Source of the DNA: an uncultured Methylibium sp.
GTDB taxonomy: Bacteria > Pseudomonadota > Gammaproteobacteria > Burkholderiales > Burkholderiaceae_C
Direction of reading: 5' to 3'
Length of the DNA stretch: 36,334 nt
Assembly (NCBI GenBank): GCA_903889735.1
Contig: CAISYQ010000145.1
Span: 1-36,334 of the forward strand
Position 1 is the first letter of the stretch. Every line of letters starts with the position of its first letter. This document shows, one piece after another, positions 23,485 to 30,211 of the stretch. The position numbers and the translations under genes are program-made. Under the pieces are notes generated by a model. It searched no databases. It was not told where the DNA came from and saw nothing but the letters and a program-made list of their open reading frames with translations.

Positions 23485-24132
23485 ATGCTGTTCGGCAAGC
23501 TGCTGCCTCAAGAGGGCAATTTTTTCGAGCTGTTCAACCAGCATGCGGGCTTCATCGTCGAGGGCGCGCGAGCCTTCACCGCGATGATCGAGAACTATGC
23601 CGACCTGCCGGAGCGCGAGCGCCTCGGCGCGGCGGTGATCGATGCCGAGCGCAAGGCCGACAAGGTCACCGCCGAGGTCAACCGCCTGCTGCACAAGACC
23701 TTCATCACGCCGCTGGACCGAGAGCAGATCCACGGCCTGATCAACGCGATGGACGACATCCTCGATCTGCTGCAGGACACCACCGAGACCATGAGTCTCT
23801 ACGACGTGCGCCGCATGACCGAGGAGACGCTGGCACTCGGCCACCTGAGCGCGCGCTGCTGTGAGCGGGTGCAGCACGCCGTCTCGCTGCTGCCCAAGCT
23901 CAAGGACGCCAGCGTGGTCGAGGCCGCGGTCAAGACCTGCGAGGAGATTGATCACCTCGAGAGCGATGCCGACCGCGTGATGCGTTCGGCCATGAGCCAG
24001 CTGTTCCGCAACGAGCCCGATGTGCGCGAGCTCATCAAGCTCAAGGCCATCTACGAGATGCTGGAGTCCATCACCGACCGCTGCGAGGATGTCGCCAACC
24101 TCATCGAGGGCATCGTCCTCGAGAACTCCTGA
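23485..24132 (+). CDS. DUF47 / PhoU-like protein paired with Pit
   Basis: A 215-residue all-helical protein of the DUF47 family (TIGR00153; OrfA in Sinorhizobium, YkaA in other bacteria), related to PhoU. Regions such as MLFGKLLPQEGNFFELFNQH, ADKVTAEVNRLLHKTFITPLDREQIHGLINAMDDILD and the acidic stretch EEIDHLESDADRVMRSAM fit the PhoU-type metal-binding helices. It is thought to control the partner Pit transporter. The start ATG 23485 (GGGAG site, conserved MLFGK) is preferred over an upstream in-frame TTG or similar codon. Pit follows 16 bases later, so the pair is one operon. A Pho-box-like repeat lies just upstream. Confidence 0.9.
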   Translation: MLFGKLLPQEGNFFELFNQHAGFIVEGARAFTAMIENYADLPERERLGAAVIDAERKADKVTAEVNRLLHKTFITPLDREQIHGLINAMDDILDLLQDTTETMSLYDVRRMTEETLALGHLSARCCERVQHAVSLLPKLKDASVVEAAVKTCEEIDHLESDADRVMRSAMSQLFRNEPDVRELIKLKAIYEMLESITDRCEDVANLIEGIVLENS

Positions 24133-24148
24133 CGCTCCGGCGCTGACC

Positions 24149-25159
24149 ATGGCGTCGGTCGAGATCGGCTTCTGGGTGGTTGCGGGCCTCGTGCTCCTGG
24201 CGATCGTGTTCGACTTCATGAACGGCTTCCACGACGCGGCCAACTCCATCGCCACCGTCGTCTCCACCGGCGTGCTCAAGCCTCAGCAGGCGGTGTTGTT
24301 CGCGGCTTTCTTCAATTTCGTCGCGATCTTTGTGTTCCACCTGTCGGTGGCGGCCACCGTGGGCAAGGGCATCGTGCAGCCCGGCGTGGTGGATCCCCAT
24401 GTGGTGTTCGGCGCGCTGGTGGGGGCCGTGTCCTGGAACCTGATCACCTGGTACTACGGCATCCCTTCGTCGAGCTCGCACGCGCTGATCGGCGGGCTGG
24501 TGGGCGCGGTGCTGGCCAAGGCCGGCCCGGGTGCGTTGGTGGCCGCCGGGGTGGGCAAGACGGTGGCCTTCATCGTCGTGTCACCGGTGCTGGGCTTTCT
24601 GCTCGGCTCGCTCATGATGCTGCTGGTGGCCTGGACGCTGCGCGGCAAGACACCGCTGCGGGTCGACCGGTGGTTTCGCCGCGGGCAGCTGTTCTCGGCC
24701 GCGCTCTACAGCCTGGGCCATGGCGGCAACGACGCGCAGAAGACCATCGGCATCATCTGGCTGCTGCTGATCGCCTCGGGCTATGTCAGCGCGGCCGACA
24801 AGATGCCGCCCTGGTGGGTGATCTGGTCCTGCTACATCGCCATCGCGATGGGCACGATGTTCGGCGGCTGGCGCATCGTCAAGACCATGGGTCAGCGGAT
24901 CACCAAGCTCAAGCCGGTGGGGGGGTTCTGCGCCGAGACGGGCGGGGCGATCACGCTCTTCATGGCCAGCAGCCTGGGCATCCCGGTCTCGACCACCCAC
25001 ACCATCACCGGCGCCATCGTCGGTGTCGGCTCCACGCAGCGGATGTCGGGGGTGCGCTGGGGGGTGGCCGGCACCATCGTCTGGGCCTGGGTTTTCACGA
25101 TCCCGGCCTCGGCGCTGATCGCGGCGCTCTTCTACGGGCTGAGCCTCTGGGCGTTCTGA
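24149..25159 (+). CDS. pit: Low-affinity inorganic phosphate transporter, PiT family
   Basis: A 336-residue integral membrane protein, a PiT-family metal-phosphate/H+ symporter with about 10 helices. The two PiT signatures are present: FDFMNGFHDAANSIATVVSTGVL near the N-terminus and SLGHGGNDAQKTIGIIWLLL in the middle; PVSTTHTITGAIVGVGS follows in the C-terminal repeat. No hydrophilic central loop insertion is seen, in line with the shorter bacterial Pit group. Start ATG 24149 has no clear Shine-Dalgarno, and probably relies on coupling to the DUF47 gene upstream. It is convergent with the MxaD-like gene across a large inverted repeat. Confidence 0.95.
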   Translation: MASVEIGFWVVAGLVLLAIVFDFMNGFHDAANSIATVVSTGVLKPQQAVLFAAFFNFVAIFVFHLSVAATVGKGIVQPGVVDPHVVFGALVGAVSWNLITWYYGIPSSSSHALIGGLVGAVLAKAGPGALVAAGVGKTVAFIVVSPVLGFLLGSLMMLLVAWTLRGKTPLRVDRWFRRGQLFSAALYSLGHGGNDAQKTIGIIWLLLIASGYVSAADKMPPWWVIWSCYIAIAMGTMFGGWRIVKTMGQRITKLKPVGGFCAETGGAITLFMASSLGIPVSTTHTITGAIVGVGSTQRMSGVRWGVAGTIVWAWVFTIPASALIAALFYGLSLWAF

Positions 25160-25283: not shown

Positions 25284-25808
25284 TCACTTCTTCTCGACCA
25301 GTTTCTTCAGATTCGCCAGGCCGGCCTGGTAGGCGCCGGTCACGGCCTTGACAGCCGCCTCGTCGTTCTGGTCGGGCGGCGGGTCGTTGTTCGGAAAGCC
25401 CCGGTAGAAGGCGCCGCGCCACTCGACGGTGGACTTGGCGCCGTCGCCGCTGACGCTGATCGTCGAGGTGTAGTTGGTGGCGGGCAGCGCGCCGCCGTCC
25501 TTGGCGCGGTAGCTGTAGCTGCGGCCGGCGGCGTTGTAGCGCTCCAGGGTCTCGATCACCGAGCCGGCGCCCTTGATCTTGACCTCGCGCACGGAGCCCT
25601 CGGTGTTGCCCTTGTCGGCGGCGCTGGACTCGATGGCCGGATGCCATTGGGCGAGCCCGTCGAAATCCTTGATCACCGCCCAGACGGCATCGGCCGGGGC
25701 ATCGATGGTGATCTTCTCCACCACCTTCTGGCGGGTCGGGCCGTGGGCCAGCGCGGGGCCGGCGGTAAAGCTGAGCAGCGCCAGGGCGGCGAGCCATCGT
25801 GAGAGCAT
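25284..25808 (-). CDS. MxaD-like periplasmic SRPBCC protein
   Basis: A 174-residue protein with a signal peptide (about 1-21, ending GPALA before HGPTRQ), so periplasmic. The mature part is a START/SRPBCC fold: ITIDAPADAVWAVIKDFDGLAQWHPAIESS and YSYRAKDGGALPATNYTSTI, ending AFYRGFPNNDPPP. This pattern, including AHGP at the mature end, is close to MxaD of methylotrophs, which assists methanol dehydrogenase with its cytochrome. No dehydrogenase gene is in this window, so the link is inference. An overlapping frame 11 bases away also looks open but has no such signals. ATG 25808 gives a clean signal peptide. Next upstream is a beta-propeller gene 72 bases away. Confidence 0.82.
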   Translation of the reverse strand: MLSRWLAALALLSFTAGPALAHGPTRQKVVEKITIDAPADAVWAVIKDFDGLAQWHPAIESSAADKGNTEGSVREVKIKGAGSVIETLERYNAAGRSYSYRAKDGGALPATNYTSTISVSGDGAKSTVEWRGAFYRGFPNNDPPPDQNDEAAVKAVTGAYQAGLANLKKLVEKK

Positions 25809-25880
25809 CGGATCGTCTCCAAGTGAAGGGGTTGTGGGGTGAGGGCGGAGCGGGGTGGGTCCTGCCTACTGCCGAGAGGT

Positions 25881-26885
25881 CTAGGGCGCCGCGGGATCAC
25901 CGACGAAGGCGCCAAAGCCGCGTGGGTTGCGGCCGAGGCCGACCTCCCGCAGACGTCGGCCGGTCGTGGCCTCGAGCTCGATGAGATTCTCGTCCATCCA
26001 GTTCACCACCCAGACCCGGTCGCCCTTTGAGGCCACGCCCTCGGGGTAGCCGAAACCGGTGAGCGTTTGGAGGACTTGGAGCGTGTCGGGATCGATCACC
26101 GTGACCGTGTCGTCCCGCTGGTTGGTGACATAGAGCCGGCTGCCGGCCGCCGCCAGCGCGGCCCCGTAGGGCGCTTTGCCGACCCCGACCCGGCCGAGCA
26201 GCCGGGGCGTGGCGGGATCCCGGACGTCGAGCACCGAGACGTCGTCGCTGTAGACGTTGAGCACGTAGAGGCGCTGCCGCGGGCCGTCGAAGAGCAGCGC
26301 GAAGGGGTGCTCGCCCACAGGGAAGCGCGAGCGCACCGTGGCGCTGGCGACATCCACCGCCGCCACATGGTTGTCATCGCGCTCGGCCACCCACACGGTC
26401 GCGCCGTCGGACCCGACCGCCACACCGGCCGGCGCCTTGCCCAGGGGCACGCGCAGGACCTGGCGGTGGCTGGCGGTGTCGAAGCCGAGCAGCTGCTGAC
26501 CGAACCAGTCGGCCACGTAGACGCGCCGACCGTCCGGCGAGGCGTCCAGGCCGACGGCGCCCTGGCCGGCCGGCAAGGTGGCCAGGGCCTGACCCGTCTT
26601 CATGTCGATCACCGTCAGGGCATTGGCGTCGGGCGCGGTGACACACACCGTGCCGGCCCGGGGCACCGCCACCACGCCGGCGGGTGACTTGGCCACCGGG
26701 ATTGTCGCTGTCACCGCGTGGGAGGCGAGATCGACCACGCTGACGCTGTGGTCGCCCTGGTTGGTGATCCAGCCCTGCGGCGCGGCGGGGGCCTGGCCGC
26801 ACGACAGGGCCCCAGCCATCAGGAGCGTGGCCCACCAGACCGGCCGGACCGGACGGAAGGAGCAGGGGCTGGTGGGGTGTTTCAT
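25881..26885 (-). CDS. YncE-like YVTN beta-propeller protein (periplasmic)
   Basis: A 334-residue protein with an N-terminal signal (hydrophobic WWATLLMAGALSCG; likely cleavage near APAAPQG) followed by about seven repeats of roughly 42 residues in the YVTN/NHL style, e.g. VSVVDLASHAVTATIPV, VYVADWFGQQLLGFDT, LYVLNVYSDDVSVLDV and LYVTNQRDDTVTVIDP, forming a beta-propeller. Such proteins occur beside PQQ-dependent dehydrogenase genes, among other places; the exact role is unknown. A lipobox-like ALSC is present but not a clean match. It is on the same strand as the MxaD-like gene downstream and the kinase/regulator pair upstream, separated from the kinase by 160 bases that contain a 10-base tandem repeat. 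Confidence 0.85.
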   Translation of the reverse strand: MKHPTSPCSFRPVRPVWWATLLMAGALSCGQAPAAPQGWITNQGDHSVSVVDLASHAVTATIPVAKSPAGVVAVPRAGTVCVTAPDANALTVIDMKTGQALATLPAGQGAVGLDASPDGRRVYVADWFGQQLLGFDTASHRQVLRVPLGKAPAGVAVGSDGATVWVAERDDNHVAAVDVASATVRSRFPVGEHPFALLFDGPRQRLYVLNVYSDDVSVLDVRDPATPRLLGRVGVGKAPYGAALAAAGSRLYVTNQRDDTVTVIDPDTLQVLQTLTGFGYPEGVASKGDRVWVVNWMDENLIELEATTGRRLREVGLGRNPRGFGAFVGDPAAP

Positions 26886-26997
26886 GAAGCGGGCTCGGTG
26901 GGGGCTGCGGACCTGGATGTTGCCCGAAGCCGCAGGCCGCTGCAGCCGGCCGGCCGGGGCGCCTTGGTCGCTGGCGACTCAGCGGCTTGGCGCCGCT

Positions 26998-27047
26998 TAC
27001 CGCCATCTACCGCCATCTACCGGCGTTTGCCGGCGTTTGCCGCCGCT
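26998..27047. repeat. Five-copy 10-base tandem repeat
   Basis: Units: TACCGCCATC, TACCGCCATC, TACCGGCGTT, TGCCGGCGTT, TGCCGCCGCT. The first two are identical, the third and fourth differ at one base, so the array looks like a drifting slippage product. Its last two bases fall in the stop codon of the histidine kinase gene, so the array is the immediate 3' flank of that gene. The 10-base period is about one DNA helix turn. Confidence 0.8.
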
Positions 27048-28917
27048 ATCGCAGGCCGAGCTTGAAGGCGATCATCGCCCGCAGCTTGTTGGGCGCCACT
27101 GGCTTGATGAGCAGATGGAAGTCGTGGCGCGAGGATTCATCCTCGTGGCCCGTCATGGTGCTGCCGGTCACGACGATGGCCGGCAGCGGGGCGCCGAAGG
27201 CCTGGCGCAGGACCTGGATCGCCTCGATGCCGGTGCGGCCTTCGGGCAGGCGGTAGTCGGCGATGGCGAGGTCGGGTGTTGCCGGGCCGGCGGCGATCCA
27301 GGCAGCCAGGCTGCCAAGGCTGTCGAAGGCTTCGACCGTGGCACCCCAGCCGCGCAGCAAGAGCAGCAGTCCCTCGCGCACCGCCGGCTCGTCCTCCACC
27401 ACGACGATGCGGCGGTGCTCCAGGGTCAGCCCGATCCGGGGCCGGGCGGCGCCGAGCATGGCCGGGGTCTTCTGGGGTGGCTTGCCCAGGGGCAGCTCCA
27501 GCGTGAAGACGCTGCCCCGGCCCGGCACGGAGCTCAGCCGCAGGGGGGCGGCCATCAGGCGCGCCAGCCGCTGCACGATCGACAGGCCCAGGCCCAGCCC
27601 CTTGGCCTGGTTCGGTGCCAGCGCCAGGCCCGCGTTGACTTGGTAGAACTCGTCGAAGATGCGGGCCTGTTCGGCCACCGGGATCCCCACGCCGGTGTCC
27701 CAGACCTGCACCCAGACCCGGCCGTCCCGCAGGCGGGCGCTCACCAGCACACCGCCGTCCGCGGTGTAGCGGATGGCGTTGGAGAGCAGGTTGCGCACCA
27801 CCCGGTCCACCAGCACCGGGTCGGCGTAGACGTCATGGCCGGCACCCCGCACGCTCATGGAGAGGCCCTTCTCGAAGGCCGTGGGTTCGTACTGCAGACG
27901 CAGGCGCTGGAACAGCTCGCGCAGCCTGAAATGCTCAGGCTGGGGTTCGACCCCGCCGGTGTCGATCTTGGTGATGTCGAGCAGCTCGCTGAACAGGCCC
28001 TCGAGGGCATCGACCGAGCTGTTGATGCTGTTCACCAGGTGGGTCACCTCGTCGTCGCCCCGGCTCTTGGCTCGCAGTGCCTCGGCGAACAGGCCCATGG
28101 CGTGCAGCGGCTGGCGCAGATCGTGGCTCGCCGCCGAGAAGAACTGCGTTTTGGCGCGGCTTGCCGCCTCCGCCACGCCCTGGGCGGCCTCGGCCACCGC
28201 CTTTTCGGCCTGGAGCTGCTCGGCCAGCTGCTCGGTGCGGAGCTTGAGATGGATGGCGTTCTCGAAGGCGTGGCGGTAGGTGCGCCCCAGCAGGGCCGTC
28301 ATCACGCTGGTGAGCGCCACCACCGCGGCCAGTACCAGCTCATCGGGCCCCCCCAGCGTGACCAGCCTCAGGATCGTCGGCACGAAGGCGAGGCTGATGA
28401 AGCCCAGGAAGATGCGGTACTGGTTGGCCAGCAGCGGGATGGCGCCAACGCAGTAGCCATAGGCGATGACCAGCAGCGCGGCCTGTTGATGGGCGCGGCC
28501 GTGGGGGTAGAGCAGCCAGACCGCGGCCCCCCAGGCGGCGCCGAAGACCAGCGCACCGAGGTTCCACCACAGCAGCCAGTTCTCGGCGTCCCGGCGGCTG
28601 TGCTCGCTGGCGTGGTAGCGCAGCAAGGTCGCCAGCCGCAGCAGCCAGAAGACGGCAAAGAGGCCGCCCCAGACCCCCAGCACCGCGGTGGGTGCGGTAC
28701 CCGCAAACAGCGCAATCAGCACCAGCGCACCCAGCAGGTGACCCGCCAGCGCCACCCCGGTCTGTCGGTACAGCGATTGCACGGTGTCGGGGAGCAGCTG
28801 GTCCCGGGTCAGCTCCCGGGGCGGTTCGCGGCGGCGGGTTGGGGCCGTTGGGGTCGGCGGCGTGGCGGTCGCGGTTGCCGCGACGGTCTCTGCCTGGGCC
28901 CCGGGGCCGATGCTCAT
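27046..28917 (-). CDS. Membrane hybrid sensor histidine kinase with C-terminal receiver
   Basis: A 623-residue protein. The first 45 residues are a Pro/Ala/Thr-rich cytoplasmic tail; about 6-7 membrane helices follow (about 55-210), then a coiled linker (about 220-255). The HisKA block FFSAASHDLRQPLHAMGLF holds the phosphorylated His (H265); the ATPase domain shows NLLSNAIRYT (N box), DTGVGIP (G1) and GLGLGLSI (G2). A receiver (about 502-620) has VVEDEP, phosphoacceptor Asp D554 in IADYRLPEG, VVTGS and LLIKPVAP (Lys 605). It is coupled to the LuxR-type regulator by a 4-base ATGA overlap. The signal sensed is unknown; the nearby MxaD-like and propeller genes suggest alcohol or PQQ metabolism (inference). 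Confidence 0.93.
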   Translation of the reverse strand: MSIGPGAQAETVAATATATPPTPTAPTRRREPPRELTRDQLLPDTVQSLYRQTGVALAGHLLGALVLIALFAGTAPTAVLGVWGGLFAVFWLLRLATLLRYHASEHSRRDAENWLLWWNLGALVFGAAWGAAVWLLYPHGRAHQQAALLVIAYGYCVGAIPLLANQYRIFLGFISLAFVPTILRLVTLGGPDELVLAAVVALTSVMTALLGRTYRHAFENAIHLKLRTEQLAEQLQAEKAVAEAAQGVAEAASRAKTQFFSAASHDLRQPLHAMGLFAEALRAKSRGDDEVTHLVNSINSSVDALEGLFSELLDITKIDTGGVEPQPEHFRLRELFQRLRLQYEPTAFEKGLSMSVRGAGHDVYADPVLVDRVVRNLLSNAIRYTADGGVLVSARLRDGRVWVQVWDTGVGIPVAEQARIFDEFYQVNAGLALAPNQAKGLGLGLSIVQRLARLMAAPLRLSSVPGRGSVFTLELPLGKPPQKTPAMLGAARPRIGLTLEHRRIVVVEDEPAVREGLLLLLRGWGATVEAFDSLGSLAAWIAAGPATPDLAIADYRLPEGRTGIEAIQVLRQAFGAPLPAIVVTGSTMTGHEDESSRHDFHLLIKPVAPNKLRAMIAFKLGLR

Positions 28918-29678
28918 TGCTGGCTGGGACGCCAGCGGCCGAGCTCGCCGCCCTTCTGGTTCAACTGGCTCACCGCCAGCACGGCTTGGGTGCGCGAGTT
29001 GACACCCAGCGAACGCAGGACTGCCGCCACATGGTCCTTGATGGTCTCGACCGAGAGGTTGAGGTCGCGGGCGATCATCTTGTTGGGCTTGCCCTGCAGC
29101 AGCAGCGCCAGGACCTCGTTCTGGCGCGGGGTCAGGCCCAGCGCGGCGACGGAGCCTAGGGGTTCTCGGCCGTCCAGCATCCCCAGGCCATCGCCCGGGA
29201 GGCGGGTGTCGCCGTTGTTGCTGGGCGAGGCAAAGCGCTCCAGCTCCGCCGGGCTGCCCATCTCCAGGGTGATCGGTGGCACATAGATGCCCCCGGACAT
29301 CACCAGCCTCAGCGCCTCGATGAGCACCTCGTTGCCGGTGTGCTTGTAGACAAAACCCATTGCACCCATGTCGATGGCGCGGATCACGTCGCTGGTGCGG
29401 TAACTGGCCGAGACCACCACCACCGGCAGGGCCGGGTAGCTGGCCCGGAATTCACCGAGCAGGTCAAAGCCGCTGATGTCGCCGAGCTGGAGGTCGAGCA
29501 GCACCAGGTCGTAGTCGTCGCCTTCTTCCAGGACCAGCCGCGCCTGCGCGGCGCTGCCCACGCCCACCACCTCGAGATCGTCCCCCAGCCCCTGGACGAC
29601 CAACTTCAGCGCCGAGAGGATCAGCGGGTGGTCATCGATCAGGAGGACTTTCATCGGCGGCTTGTCTCGTATGAACAT
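28914..29678 (-). CDS. LuxR/FixJ-type response regulator
   Basis: About 254 residues from ATG 29678; ATG 29654 (protein MKVLLIDDHP, 246 residues) is the more conserved N-terminus, and GTG 29681 is also in frame. The receiver has the acidic pair LIDDHPLI, phosphoacceptor LVLLDLQLGD, VVVSASY and GFVYKHT (Lys). The C-terminal LuxR HTH reads LTPRQNEVLALLLQGKPNKMIARDLNLSVETIKDHVAAVLRSLG. Between them is a linker of about 70 residues, longer than usual and rich in Gly, Pro and Asp. The stop overlaps the kinase start, so the two form a co-translated pair, probably regulating the propeller and MxaD-like genes downstream. A TAAGAT hexamer lies upstream. Confidence 0.92.
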   Translation of the reverse strand: MFIRDKPPMKVLLIDDHPLILSALKLVVQGLGDDLEVVGVGSAAQARLVLEEGDDYDLVLLDLQLGDISGFDLLGEFRASYPALPVVVVSASYRTSDVIRAIDMGAMGFVYKHTGNEVLIEALRLVMSGGIYVPPITLEMGSPAELERFASPSNNGDTRLPGDGLGMLDGREPLGSVAALGLTPRQNEVLALLLQGKPNKMIARDLNLSVETIKDHVAAVLRSLGVNSRTQAVLAVSQLNQKGGELGRWRPSQQ

Positions 29679-29705
29679 CACCCGCTCTGGCGACAGGTCA
29701 GTTAC

Positions 29706-29711
29706 ATCTTA
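29706..29711 (-). promoter_or_regulatory. Weak candidate -10 before the response regulator
   Basis: The minus strand shows TAAGAT (4 of 6 to consensus) 27 bases before ATG 29678. A GTGACC lies 19 bases further upstream, a poor -35. Weak support only. Confidence 0.25.
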
Positions 29712-29767: not shown

Positions 29768-30211
29768 CTACGGGTAGCAACGCAGCAGCGACTCGGCAAT
29801 ACAGACCGGTTTGGCCATGCCCTCGCGCTCCACCGTGGCTTCCACGGTGAGCTGAACTCCCTCGTCCAGCGCCTCCCAGGCCAGCAGCTTGCAGTGCGCT
29901 CGCAGCCGGCTGCCCACCGGTACCGGCGCAGTGAAGCGCACCCGGTTCAGCCCGTAGTTGATCATCAGGCGGGCGTCGGCAAGACTGAAGGCGCTGCCGA
30001 TGAAGGCCGGCAAGAGGCTCAGCGTCAGGAAACCATGTCCGACCGTCGTGCCGAACGGACCGGTTGATGCACGCACAGGATCCGTGTGGATCCACTGGTG
30101 GTCGTCGGTGGCGGCGGCAAAGGCATCGATCCTCGCCTGATCAACCAGGACCCAATCGCTCAGGCCGAGGGACTGGCCGGTCAGCCCCTGCAGATCGATC
30201 ATCACTGGCAC
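29768..30211 (-). CDS. MaoC-like (R)-hydratase
   Basis: A 147-residue single hot-dog-fold protein of the MaoC family. The active-site region DDHQWIHTDPVRASTGPFGTTVGHGFLTLSLLP carries the D-x4-H pair of hydratase 2. Such proteins hydrate trans-2-enoyl-CoA to (R)-3-hydroxyacyl-CoA, feeding polyhydroxyalkanoate synthesis or other acyl-CoA routes. The start is GTG 30211, with AAGGA 9 bases upstream; ATG 30202 is the alternative. It begins 13 bases after the panC stop on the same strand and may share its transcript, although it has no obvious role in pantothenate synthesis. Confidence 0.87.
   Translation of the reverse strand: MPVMIDLQGLTGQSLGLSDWVLVDQARIDAFAAATDDHQWIHTDPVRASTGPFGTTVGHGFLTLSLLPAFIGSAFSLADARLMINYGLNRVRFTAPVPVGSRLRAHCKLLAWEALDEGVQLTVEATVEREGMAKPVCIAESLLRCYP

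Follow-up and report, generated by a model that had tools for sequence, protein, structure and literature searches.

Among the closest described counterparts of the genes considered here are those for MxaD and MxaE of Methylorubrum extorquens, two proteins whose roles are, to our knowledge, still poorly known. In the available part of one account (PMC6414531) the M. extorquens genes stand in the order mxaL-D-E-H-B, while a passage of another (PMC7391723) reports that MxaD has a stimulating effect, direct or indirect, on how MxaFI interacts with cytochrome cL, and that loss of the MxaD homologue META1p1771 slows growth on methanol only in the presence of La3+. The present analysis concerns four genes in a 36,334-nucleotide contig of an uncultured Methylibium sp. 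(GenBank assembly GCA_903889735.1, contig CAISYQ010000145.1), the whole of which is called the window; it is contig C145 of a 3.37-Mb genome in 544 contigs, which shares the genus label g1 with the genomes G060, G172 and G250. All four open reading frames were confirmed on the minus strand and encode a LuxR-type response regulator, a membrane hybrid histidine kinase, a YVTN propeller and an SRPBCC protein (Table 1), in agreement with an initial annotation made from the sequence alone. A literature search in which not all items were examined in full found no report of an SRPBCC-propeller pair in xox clusters.

Gene order, co-occurrence, trees and gene overlaps together suggest that the group consists of two joined modules, namely a helper pair of the methanol dehydrogenase XoxF and an independently conserved signaling module; we put the probability of this reading at about 0.78. 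The propeller and the SRPBCC protein would be the xox-type counterparts of MxaE and MxaD, that is, exported helpers of the lanthanide-dependent XoxF, and to judge from the published role of MxaD they may act in the periplasm, either helping XoxF to mature or assisting the passage of electrons from it to the cytochrome XoxG. In the Methylibium lineage this pair stands outside the xoxF cluster, between the two-component system and the phosphate permease gene pitA. The regulator and the six-helix hybrid kinase belong in turn to a module conserved in the family in its own right.

The link to XoxF emerges from the phyletic pattern of the pair in 299 genomes of the family (thresholds of E <=1e-60 for the propeller and E <=1e-250 for XoxF). 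The propeller is present in 29 and XoxF in 35 of these genomes; all 29 propeller genomes have XoxF, and the propeller occurs in none of the 264 genomes without XoxF (Fisher 9e-35, kinship not corrected). The SRPBCC gene adjoins the propeller gene in 28/28 family relatives, and in 16 of these XoxF is encoded within the same fetched stretch of up to ~19 kb. The fullest cluster (L088) reads xoxF-xoxG-xoxJ-HtrA-X-Y-SoxYZ-propeller-SRPBCC-MBL-SoxYZ-Trx-cytochrome, with pqq genes next to it, and other relatives carry fewer of these genes. The pair also lies directly behind PqqB-PqqC-(135 aa)-PqqE in L090, and its neighbors in L100, L101 and L104 include MBL and SoxYZ-like genes; L097, L098 and L105 have no xoxF, pqq, MBL or SoxYZ gene near it, and it adjoins pitA in genus g1 (L078-L080) and in genus g81 (L099, L103). 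All four genes of the window occur together in four genomes, each of which has XoxF and PqqC; the case named at the outset as a refutation, genomes that carry the group but no PQQ dehydrogenase, was thus not encountered. The proposal that the two proteins are partners of a pyrroloquinoline quinone (PQQ)-dependent alcohol dehydrogenase is thus borne out by the pair, whose propeller occurs in the family only together with XoxF.

The relation to MxaD and MxaE was examined in a wider set. An SRPBCC profile search of 398 genomes drawn from the phylum matched 46, of which 22 with weaker matches only (best E 4e-21 or worse) were left out; the resulting phylum set comprises 32 loci from 22 genomes outside the family, with gene orders here and in the family relatives resting on a codon-usage gene caller. 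The SRPBCC and propeller genes are adjacent in 28 of the 32 loci, making the propeller a near-constant partner. Nine loci resemble mxa operons, as called by gene order and size, with L246 alone checked by Pfam; its order is PQQ enzyme, cytochrome, MDH beta subunit, MoxR ATPase, DUF58, VWA, SRPBCC, propeller, unknown, LuxR regulator. In these nine operons the SRPBCC homologue occupies the mxaD place after the MxaL place, and in seven of them the next gene encodes a propeller closest to the window's type. With homologues at the mxaD and mxaE places of these operons, the two window proteins are the counterparts of MxaE and MxaD.

An SRPBCC tree of 62 rows separates the mxa rows (9/9 plus L255) from the rest at 100/99, with a bootstrap that is not fully settled, and the window protein falls in a family clade (100/100) on the non-mxa side, where the tree label "lutxox" means only "not in mxa operon". 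The window gene does not lie within an mxa operon after mxaL, and hence stands outside MxaD in the strict sense; as an MxaD-like protein, the description first given to it, it is supported by sequence, tree and gene position alike. The two sides also differ at the likely mature start, with HGPTP in 9/9 mxa-operon rows and HGPTR or HGPSR in 29/29 family rows, although both SRPBCC rows of genome G655 carry P there and yet one falls on each side of the tree; HGP itself is present in 31 of the 32 phylum loci. Among the 23 non-mxa phylum loci, 6 have XoxF at >=60 % identity and 8 have >=2 lut-like genes, 10 loci in all; "lut-like" denotes BLAST matches to three L088 genes together with their order, the propeller alone among them having been tested by hidden Markov model (HMM). 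Both of the two alphaproteobacterial single-cell loci carry the pair in the swapped order SRPBCC-propeller; Of these two genomes, G300 (1.3 Mb) has XoxF, and none was found in G299, whose 0.9 Mb may be incomplete. In both loci (L030:7472-8939, L031:7411-8891) the pair directly precedes a 654-residue gene that is transketolase-like by its first residues.

The SRPBCC protein scores 125 bits to PF10604 (Polyketide_cyc2), and its AlphaFold2 model (mean predicted local distance difference test, pLDDT, 86.8) finds PDB matches of the PYL/SRPBCC fold. Its hydrophobic leader, read in the alignment rather than by a signal-peptide program, ends in ALA before HGP, and the first histidine after the leader is invariant in 16/16 rows. 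Close to their C-terminus the family proteins also share an acidic loop, NDPPPDxNDE; to judge from conservation, the loop and the N-terminal histidine are possible metal ligands. The propeller model (pLDDT 96.2) has 28 strands, as expected for seven blades, with the YVTN propeller 1l0q as its best PDB match; neither model by itself shows a cofactor. Both proteins are probably located in the periplasm. As the propeller scores 131.4 bits to TIGR03866, below the curated cut-off of 287.3, its identification as LutB/PedA2 was rejected, and a separate LutB-like propeller, 81 % identical to a TIGR03866 member, is encoded on contig C178 of the same genome. This low score, the commonness of both folds, and 11 phylum loci that have the pair with no xoxF or lut-like cluster nearby could be taken to mean that these are generic exported proteins with no tie to PQQ enzymes. 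Given that all 29 family genomes with the propeller also have XoxF, and that the pair has a common place in xox, mxa and pqq clusters, such an explanation is very improbable.

No called gene of the window matches the references for XoxF, XoxG, XoxJ, the other four PQQ dehydrogenases or PqqB/C/E, which agrees with the initial remark that dehydrogenase, cytochrome and PQQ genes are missing from it. Elsewhere in the genome there are five PQQ-dehydrogenase genes, on C398, C198 (two), C235 and C161, all matching TIGR03075. The enzyme on C235 is XoxF: its best PDB matches are the XoxF structures 6dam and 6oc5, to which its DEWDFDG stretch aligns. This enzyme is encoded in a XoxF-XoxG-XoxJ-HtrA-like cluster; a D-x-D pattern is a mark of lanthanide enzymes. 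The cluster lies near a contig border, as the contig ends soon after it. The genes pqqE, pqqB and pqqC are on C473, lut-like genes were found by BLAST on C178 and C473, and the propeller and SRPBCC genes are single-copy, both on C145. The location of the pair and XoxF on different contigs, taken together with the 16 of 28 relatives in which the pair lies in the xoxF cluster, fits the idea of a split-off accessory module.

The two-component system presents a different phyletic picture. The kinase has six hydrophobic helices ahead of its H-box, and, as had been noted from the sequence, both a phosphorylatable histidine and a receiver, the former kept in 43/43 and the receiver aspartate in 42/43 aligned kinases. 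Its input region has a mean identity to the window of only 38 % among relatives, versus 68 % for the kinase core, and no sensor domain was matched in Pfam at E 5 in four N-termini. A search of the four window proteins found no HPt domain; a relay would thus need an HPt from outside the group, with direct transfer to the regulator as the alternative. The best NCBIfam models are ErdR (NF041830) for the regulator, at 141.9 bits under a cut-off of 390, and the NahK/ErcS C-terminal model (NF041832) for the kinase, at 335.9 bits under a cut-off of 400.

Counted at E <=1e-110, kinase relatives occur in 70 of the 299 family genomes, 37 of which lack PqqC. We examined 44 kinase loci with six genes on either side, made up of 40 fetched from the 66 other genomes and the four that carry the pair. 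All 44 have the regulator upstream, 39 of them directly next to the kinase, and MaoC and a gene that we take to be ParA-like, as read from its sequence, are each found in 31; the recurring family cluster (L130-L169) consists of the ParA-like gene, MaoC, the LuxR regulator and the six-helix hybrid kinase. The propeller lies downstream of the kinase in 4/44 loci, and since all 29 propeller loci were examined, no more than 4 of the 70 kinase genomes have this arrangement at the thresholds used. The initial suggestion that the system serves alcohol or lanthanide sensing and control is therefore unsupported, as this is a wider, MaoC-linked module that is found in genomes without PqqC and seldom stands beside the pair; the four-gene group can be called an accessory module, its sensing role being unproven.

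Candidate orthologues of the regulator were considered and rejected. The alphaproteobacterial xox-side regulators of L243 and L244 are 43 and 40 % identical to it, but the match (L258 and L259, at the same places) spans 60 to 77 residues only, and the tree places them on a branch of length 10. An identity with MxaB is contradicted by the same tree, where the window's regulator groups neither with those at the mxaB place in L247 and L249 nor with the pqq-side ones; the L246 regulator was below the BLAST cut-off and is absent from the regulator tree. A different 451-residue UhpB/NarQ-like kinase is encoded near pqq genes in L081, L088, L090, L092, L093 and L095, the L088 copy being below NCBIfam cut-offs, and has a LuxR-type regulator beside it in L081, L090 and L095. 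This kinase is more likely than the window's system to be the pqq-linked regulator of the family. The window's genome also encodes, at C271:8810-10613 (L033, L048), another hybrid kinase that belongs broadly to the family of the window's kinase and is convergent with a LuxR regulator.

All four genes are found side by side in the window's genome and in G250 (both g1) and in G081 and G185 (both g81). In the window, the regulator stop overlaps the kinase ATG as ATGA, the coupling reported at the outset, while 160 bp separate the kinase from the propeller; hence only the regulator-kinase junction is coupled there. In G081 and G185, a 4-bp ATGA overlap is present at both the regulator-kinase and the kinase-propeller junctions, and in G185 the only other propeller start before the conserved sequence is a TTG three codons on. 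The overlaps at both junctions make an operon likely in g81, where the four genes would very likely form a single one, and the pair may be transcribed together with the two-component system. A kinase tree unites g1, g81 and g108 in one clade (100/100), and a joint propeller-SRPBCC tree neither rejects (p 0.41) nor shows a clade of g1 and g81. In G108, maoC, regulator and kinase lie one 371-residue gene from pitA, with the pair absent there; in G060 and G172 the modules are at distant places, one by panBC and one by pitA; and in a third Methylibium locus (L025) a different gene is upstream of the pair. The modules appear to have become neighbors in the clade of the window's genus and g81, perhaps once, a single joining in a common ancestor with later loss or rearrangement being the shortest account.

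Convergent pitA and DUF47 genes, although unrelated, are kept at the same place beside the pair, which raises the question of whether the proximity in g1 and g81 is simply retained synteny beside pitA, with independent modules and a promoter for the pair in the 160-bp gap. That gap, and the 25 of 28 relatives in which the pair has no regulator-kinase pair in the fetched stretch, speak in favor of this view. We nevertheless regard it as doubtful in view of the kinase-propeller overlaps in both g81 genomes, and a promoter scan of the region found 0 sigma-70-like sites versus 0.2 in shuffles, which is weakly informative in such GC-rich DNA; a terminator scan was uninformative.

Several observations weigh against the reading of an XoxF helper pair joined to an unrelated signaling module. 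Six XoxF genomes have no propeller at E 1e-60, which implies that the pair is not essential to XoxF, and of the five PQQ dehydrogenases encoded in the window's genome, the one on C398 and the first of the two on C198 score under the TIGR03075 cut-off. In the phylum, 13 of the 23 non-mxa loci, 11 of them with the pair, have no XoxF at 60 % and fewer than two lut-like genes in the ~19 kb stretch, to which the search for XoxF was confined. The joint propeller-SRPBCC tree contains an 18-row clade (96/93) of all 16 xoxF-cluster pairs with L090 and L097, and the pairs of g1, g81, g53 and g133 lie outside it; accordingly, "moved out of the xoxF cluster" and "never in it" both stand as histories for them. 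In an XoxF tree of weak support, g81 does not fall with g1, and the g1 sequences do not group with one another. Two sequences were excluded from our trees by a length filter, namely the L080 kinase with its internal stop and the L098 propeller, which is split. Besides the overlap of the kinase and propeller genes in g81, the kinase is commoner in XoxF genomes (29/35 vs 41/264, kinship not corrected), also within PqqC-positive genomes (29/34 with XoxF vs 4/38 without) and when counted by genus (16/21 vs 17/120). This enrichment may reflect kinship alone; it would also fit a functional link.

If it does reflect such a link, the four genes could be one functional unit in which the pair is under the control of the two-component system, as are, by way of the pair or directly, methanol or lanthanide genes, with the pair possibly reporting to the kinase. 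MxaY-MxaB and PedS2-PedR2 exert such control elsewhere. The identical four-gene order in two genera, the doubly overlapping junctions of g81, the enrichment just described, and the parallel of the mxa-type operon L246, whose last gene, at the mxaB place, encodes a LuxR-type regulator, all favor this possibility. We consider it rather unlikely, as the arrangement is limited to 4 of 70 kinase genomes and over half of these 70 lack PqqC, the modules stand apart in G060 and G172, L025 has another upstream gene, G108 has the kinase near pitA without the pair, and the window's regulator groups with neither the mxaB-place nor the pqq-side regulators. The kinase frame of G250 is likewise a point against it: an in-frame stop (L080:3101-5014) splits the kinase between its membrane part and the H-box, representing either decay or an error at an assembly coverage of 4.8. 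A narrower variant, namely that the Methylibium/g81 clade captured a general two-component system as an XoxF controller, to which the operon-made pair reports the state of XoxF, is improbable; were it true, the capture would represent a lanthanide or methanol switch built from parts other than MxaY-MxaB, MxbDM or PedS2-PedR2.

The four genes are preceded by maoC, panC, panB and scpA and followed by the convergent pitA and DUF47 genes. For the regulator, the ATG with its end at 29654 was chosen since relatives begin with MKVLL or MRVLL; 29678 and 29681 are further possible starts.

Table 1. Position of the four genes and adjacent features in the window
Feature	Position	Strand	Basis
LuxR-family response regulator (receiver + GerE), 246 aa from chosen ATG	28914..29654	-	Response_reg + GerE domains
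Hybrid histidine kinase: six hydrophobic helices, HisKA, HATPase_c, C-terminal Response_reg	27046..28917	-	domain matches
Exported YVTN propeller, corresponding to the MxaE-place protein	25881..26885	-	YNCE/YVTN propeller matches
Exported SRPBCC protein, MxaD-like, non-mxa (xox/lut) tree side, likely mature start HGPTR	25284..25808	-	Polyketide_cyc2, tree
Tandem repeat of period 10 with 5.5 copies in the kinase-propeller gap, immediately after the kinase stop codon	26991..27045	.	
MaoC-like gene, of the kind usually found upstream of the regulator-kinase module	29768..30202	-	domain search (tested as 29768-30211)
Phosphate permease gene (PHO4, pitA), convergent landmark beside the pair in g1 and g81	24149..25159	+	domain search (tested as 24122-25159)

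On the whole, the reading of an XoxF helper pair beside an independent signaling module would make MxaD-MxaE-like proteins one conserved pair recurring with both calcium-type (mxa) and lanthanide-type (xox, lut) systems. The contrast of HGPTP with HGPTR or HGPSR would then be a sequence mark of the two kinds, by which the question of their role becomes testable in many strains. The Methylibium pair, lying apart from xoxF, could be deleted without touching the dehydrogenase genes, and should it prove to be under the control of the neighboring two-component system, one more switch for lanthanide or methanol would be at hand.

Among the described systems, NahK/ErcS and ErdR of Pseudomonas provide the best NCBIfam models for the C-terminus of the window kinase and for the regulator; the window proteins differ from them in scoring below both cut-offs, in a six-helix input without a Pfam match, and in having MaoC as the usual neighbor. 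LutB/PedA2 (TIGR03866) is likewise a YVTN propeller of lanthanide gene clusters, according to portions of PMC9291206 and PMC6839425, and is distinguished from the window propeller by the TIGR03866 cut-off. In M. extorquens AM1 the locus number of META1p1771 lies near those of lutA-lutH, which resembles the situation of the non-mxa homologues L227, L228, L230 and L231 near lut-like genes, and these four loci probably correspond to it. A further likeness is to MxaD and MxaE of M. extorquens, where an SRPBCC protein starting with HGP is also encoded beside a propeller and tied to a PQQ methanol dehydrogenase. The window protein is set apart from MxaD by its place on the opposite side of the tree and by HGPTR in place of the HGPTP of the nine mxa-operon rows, and the window pair from MxaD and MxaE by having no adjoining dehydrogenase genes and by the order of propeller followed by SRPBCC.

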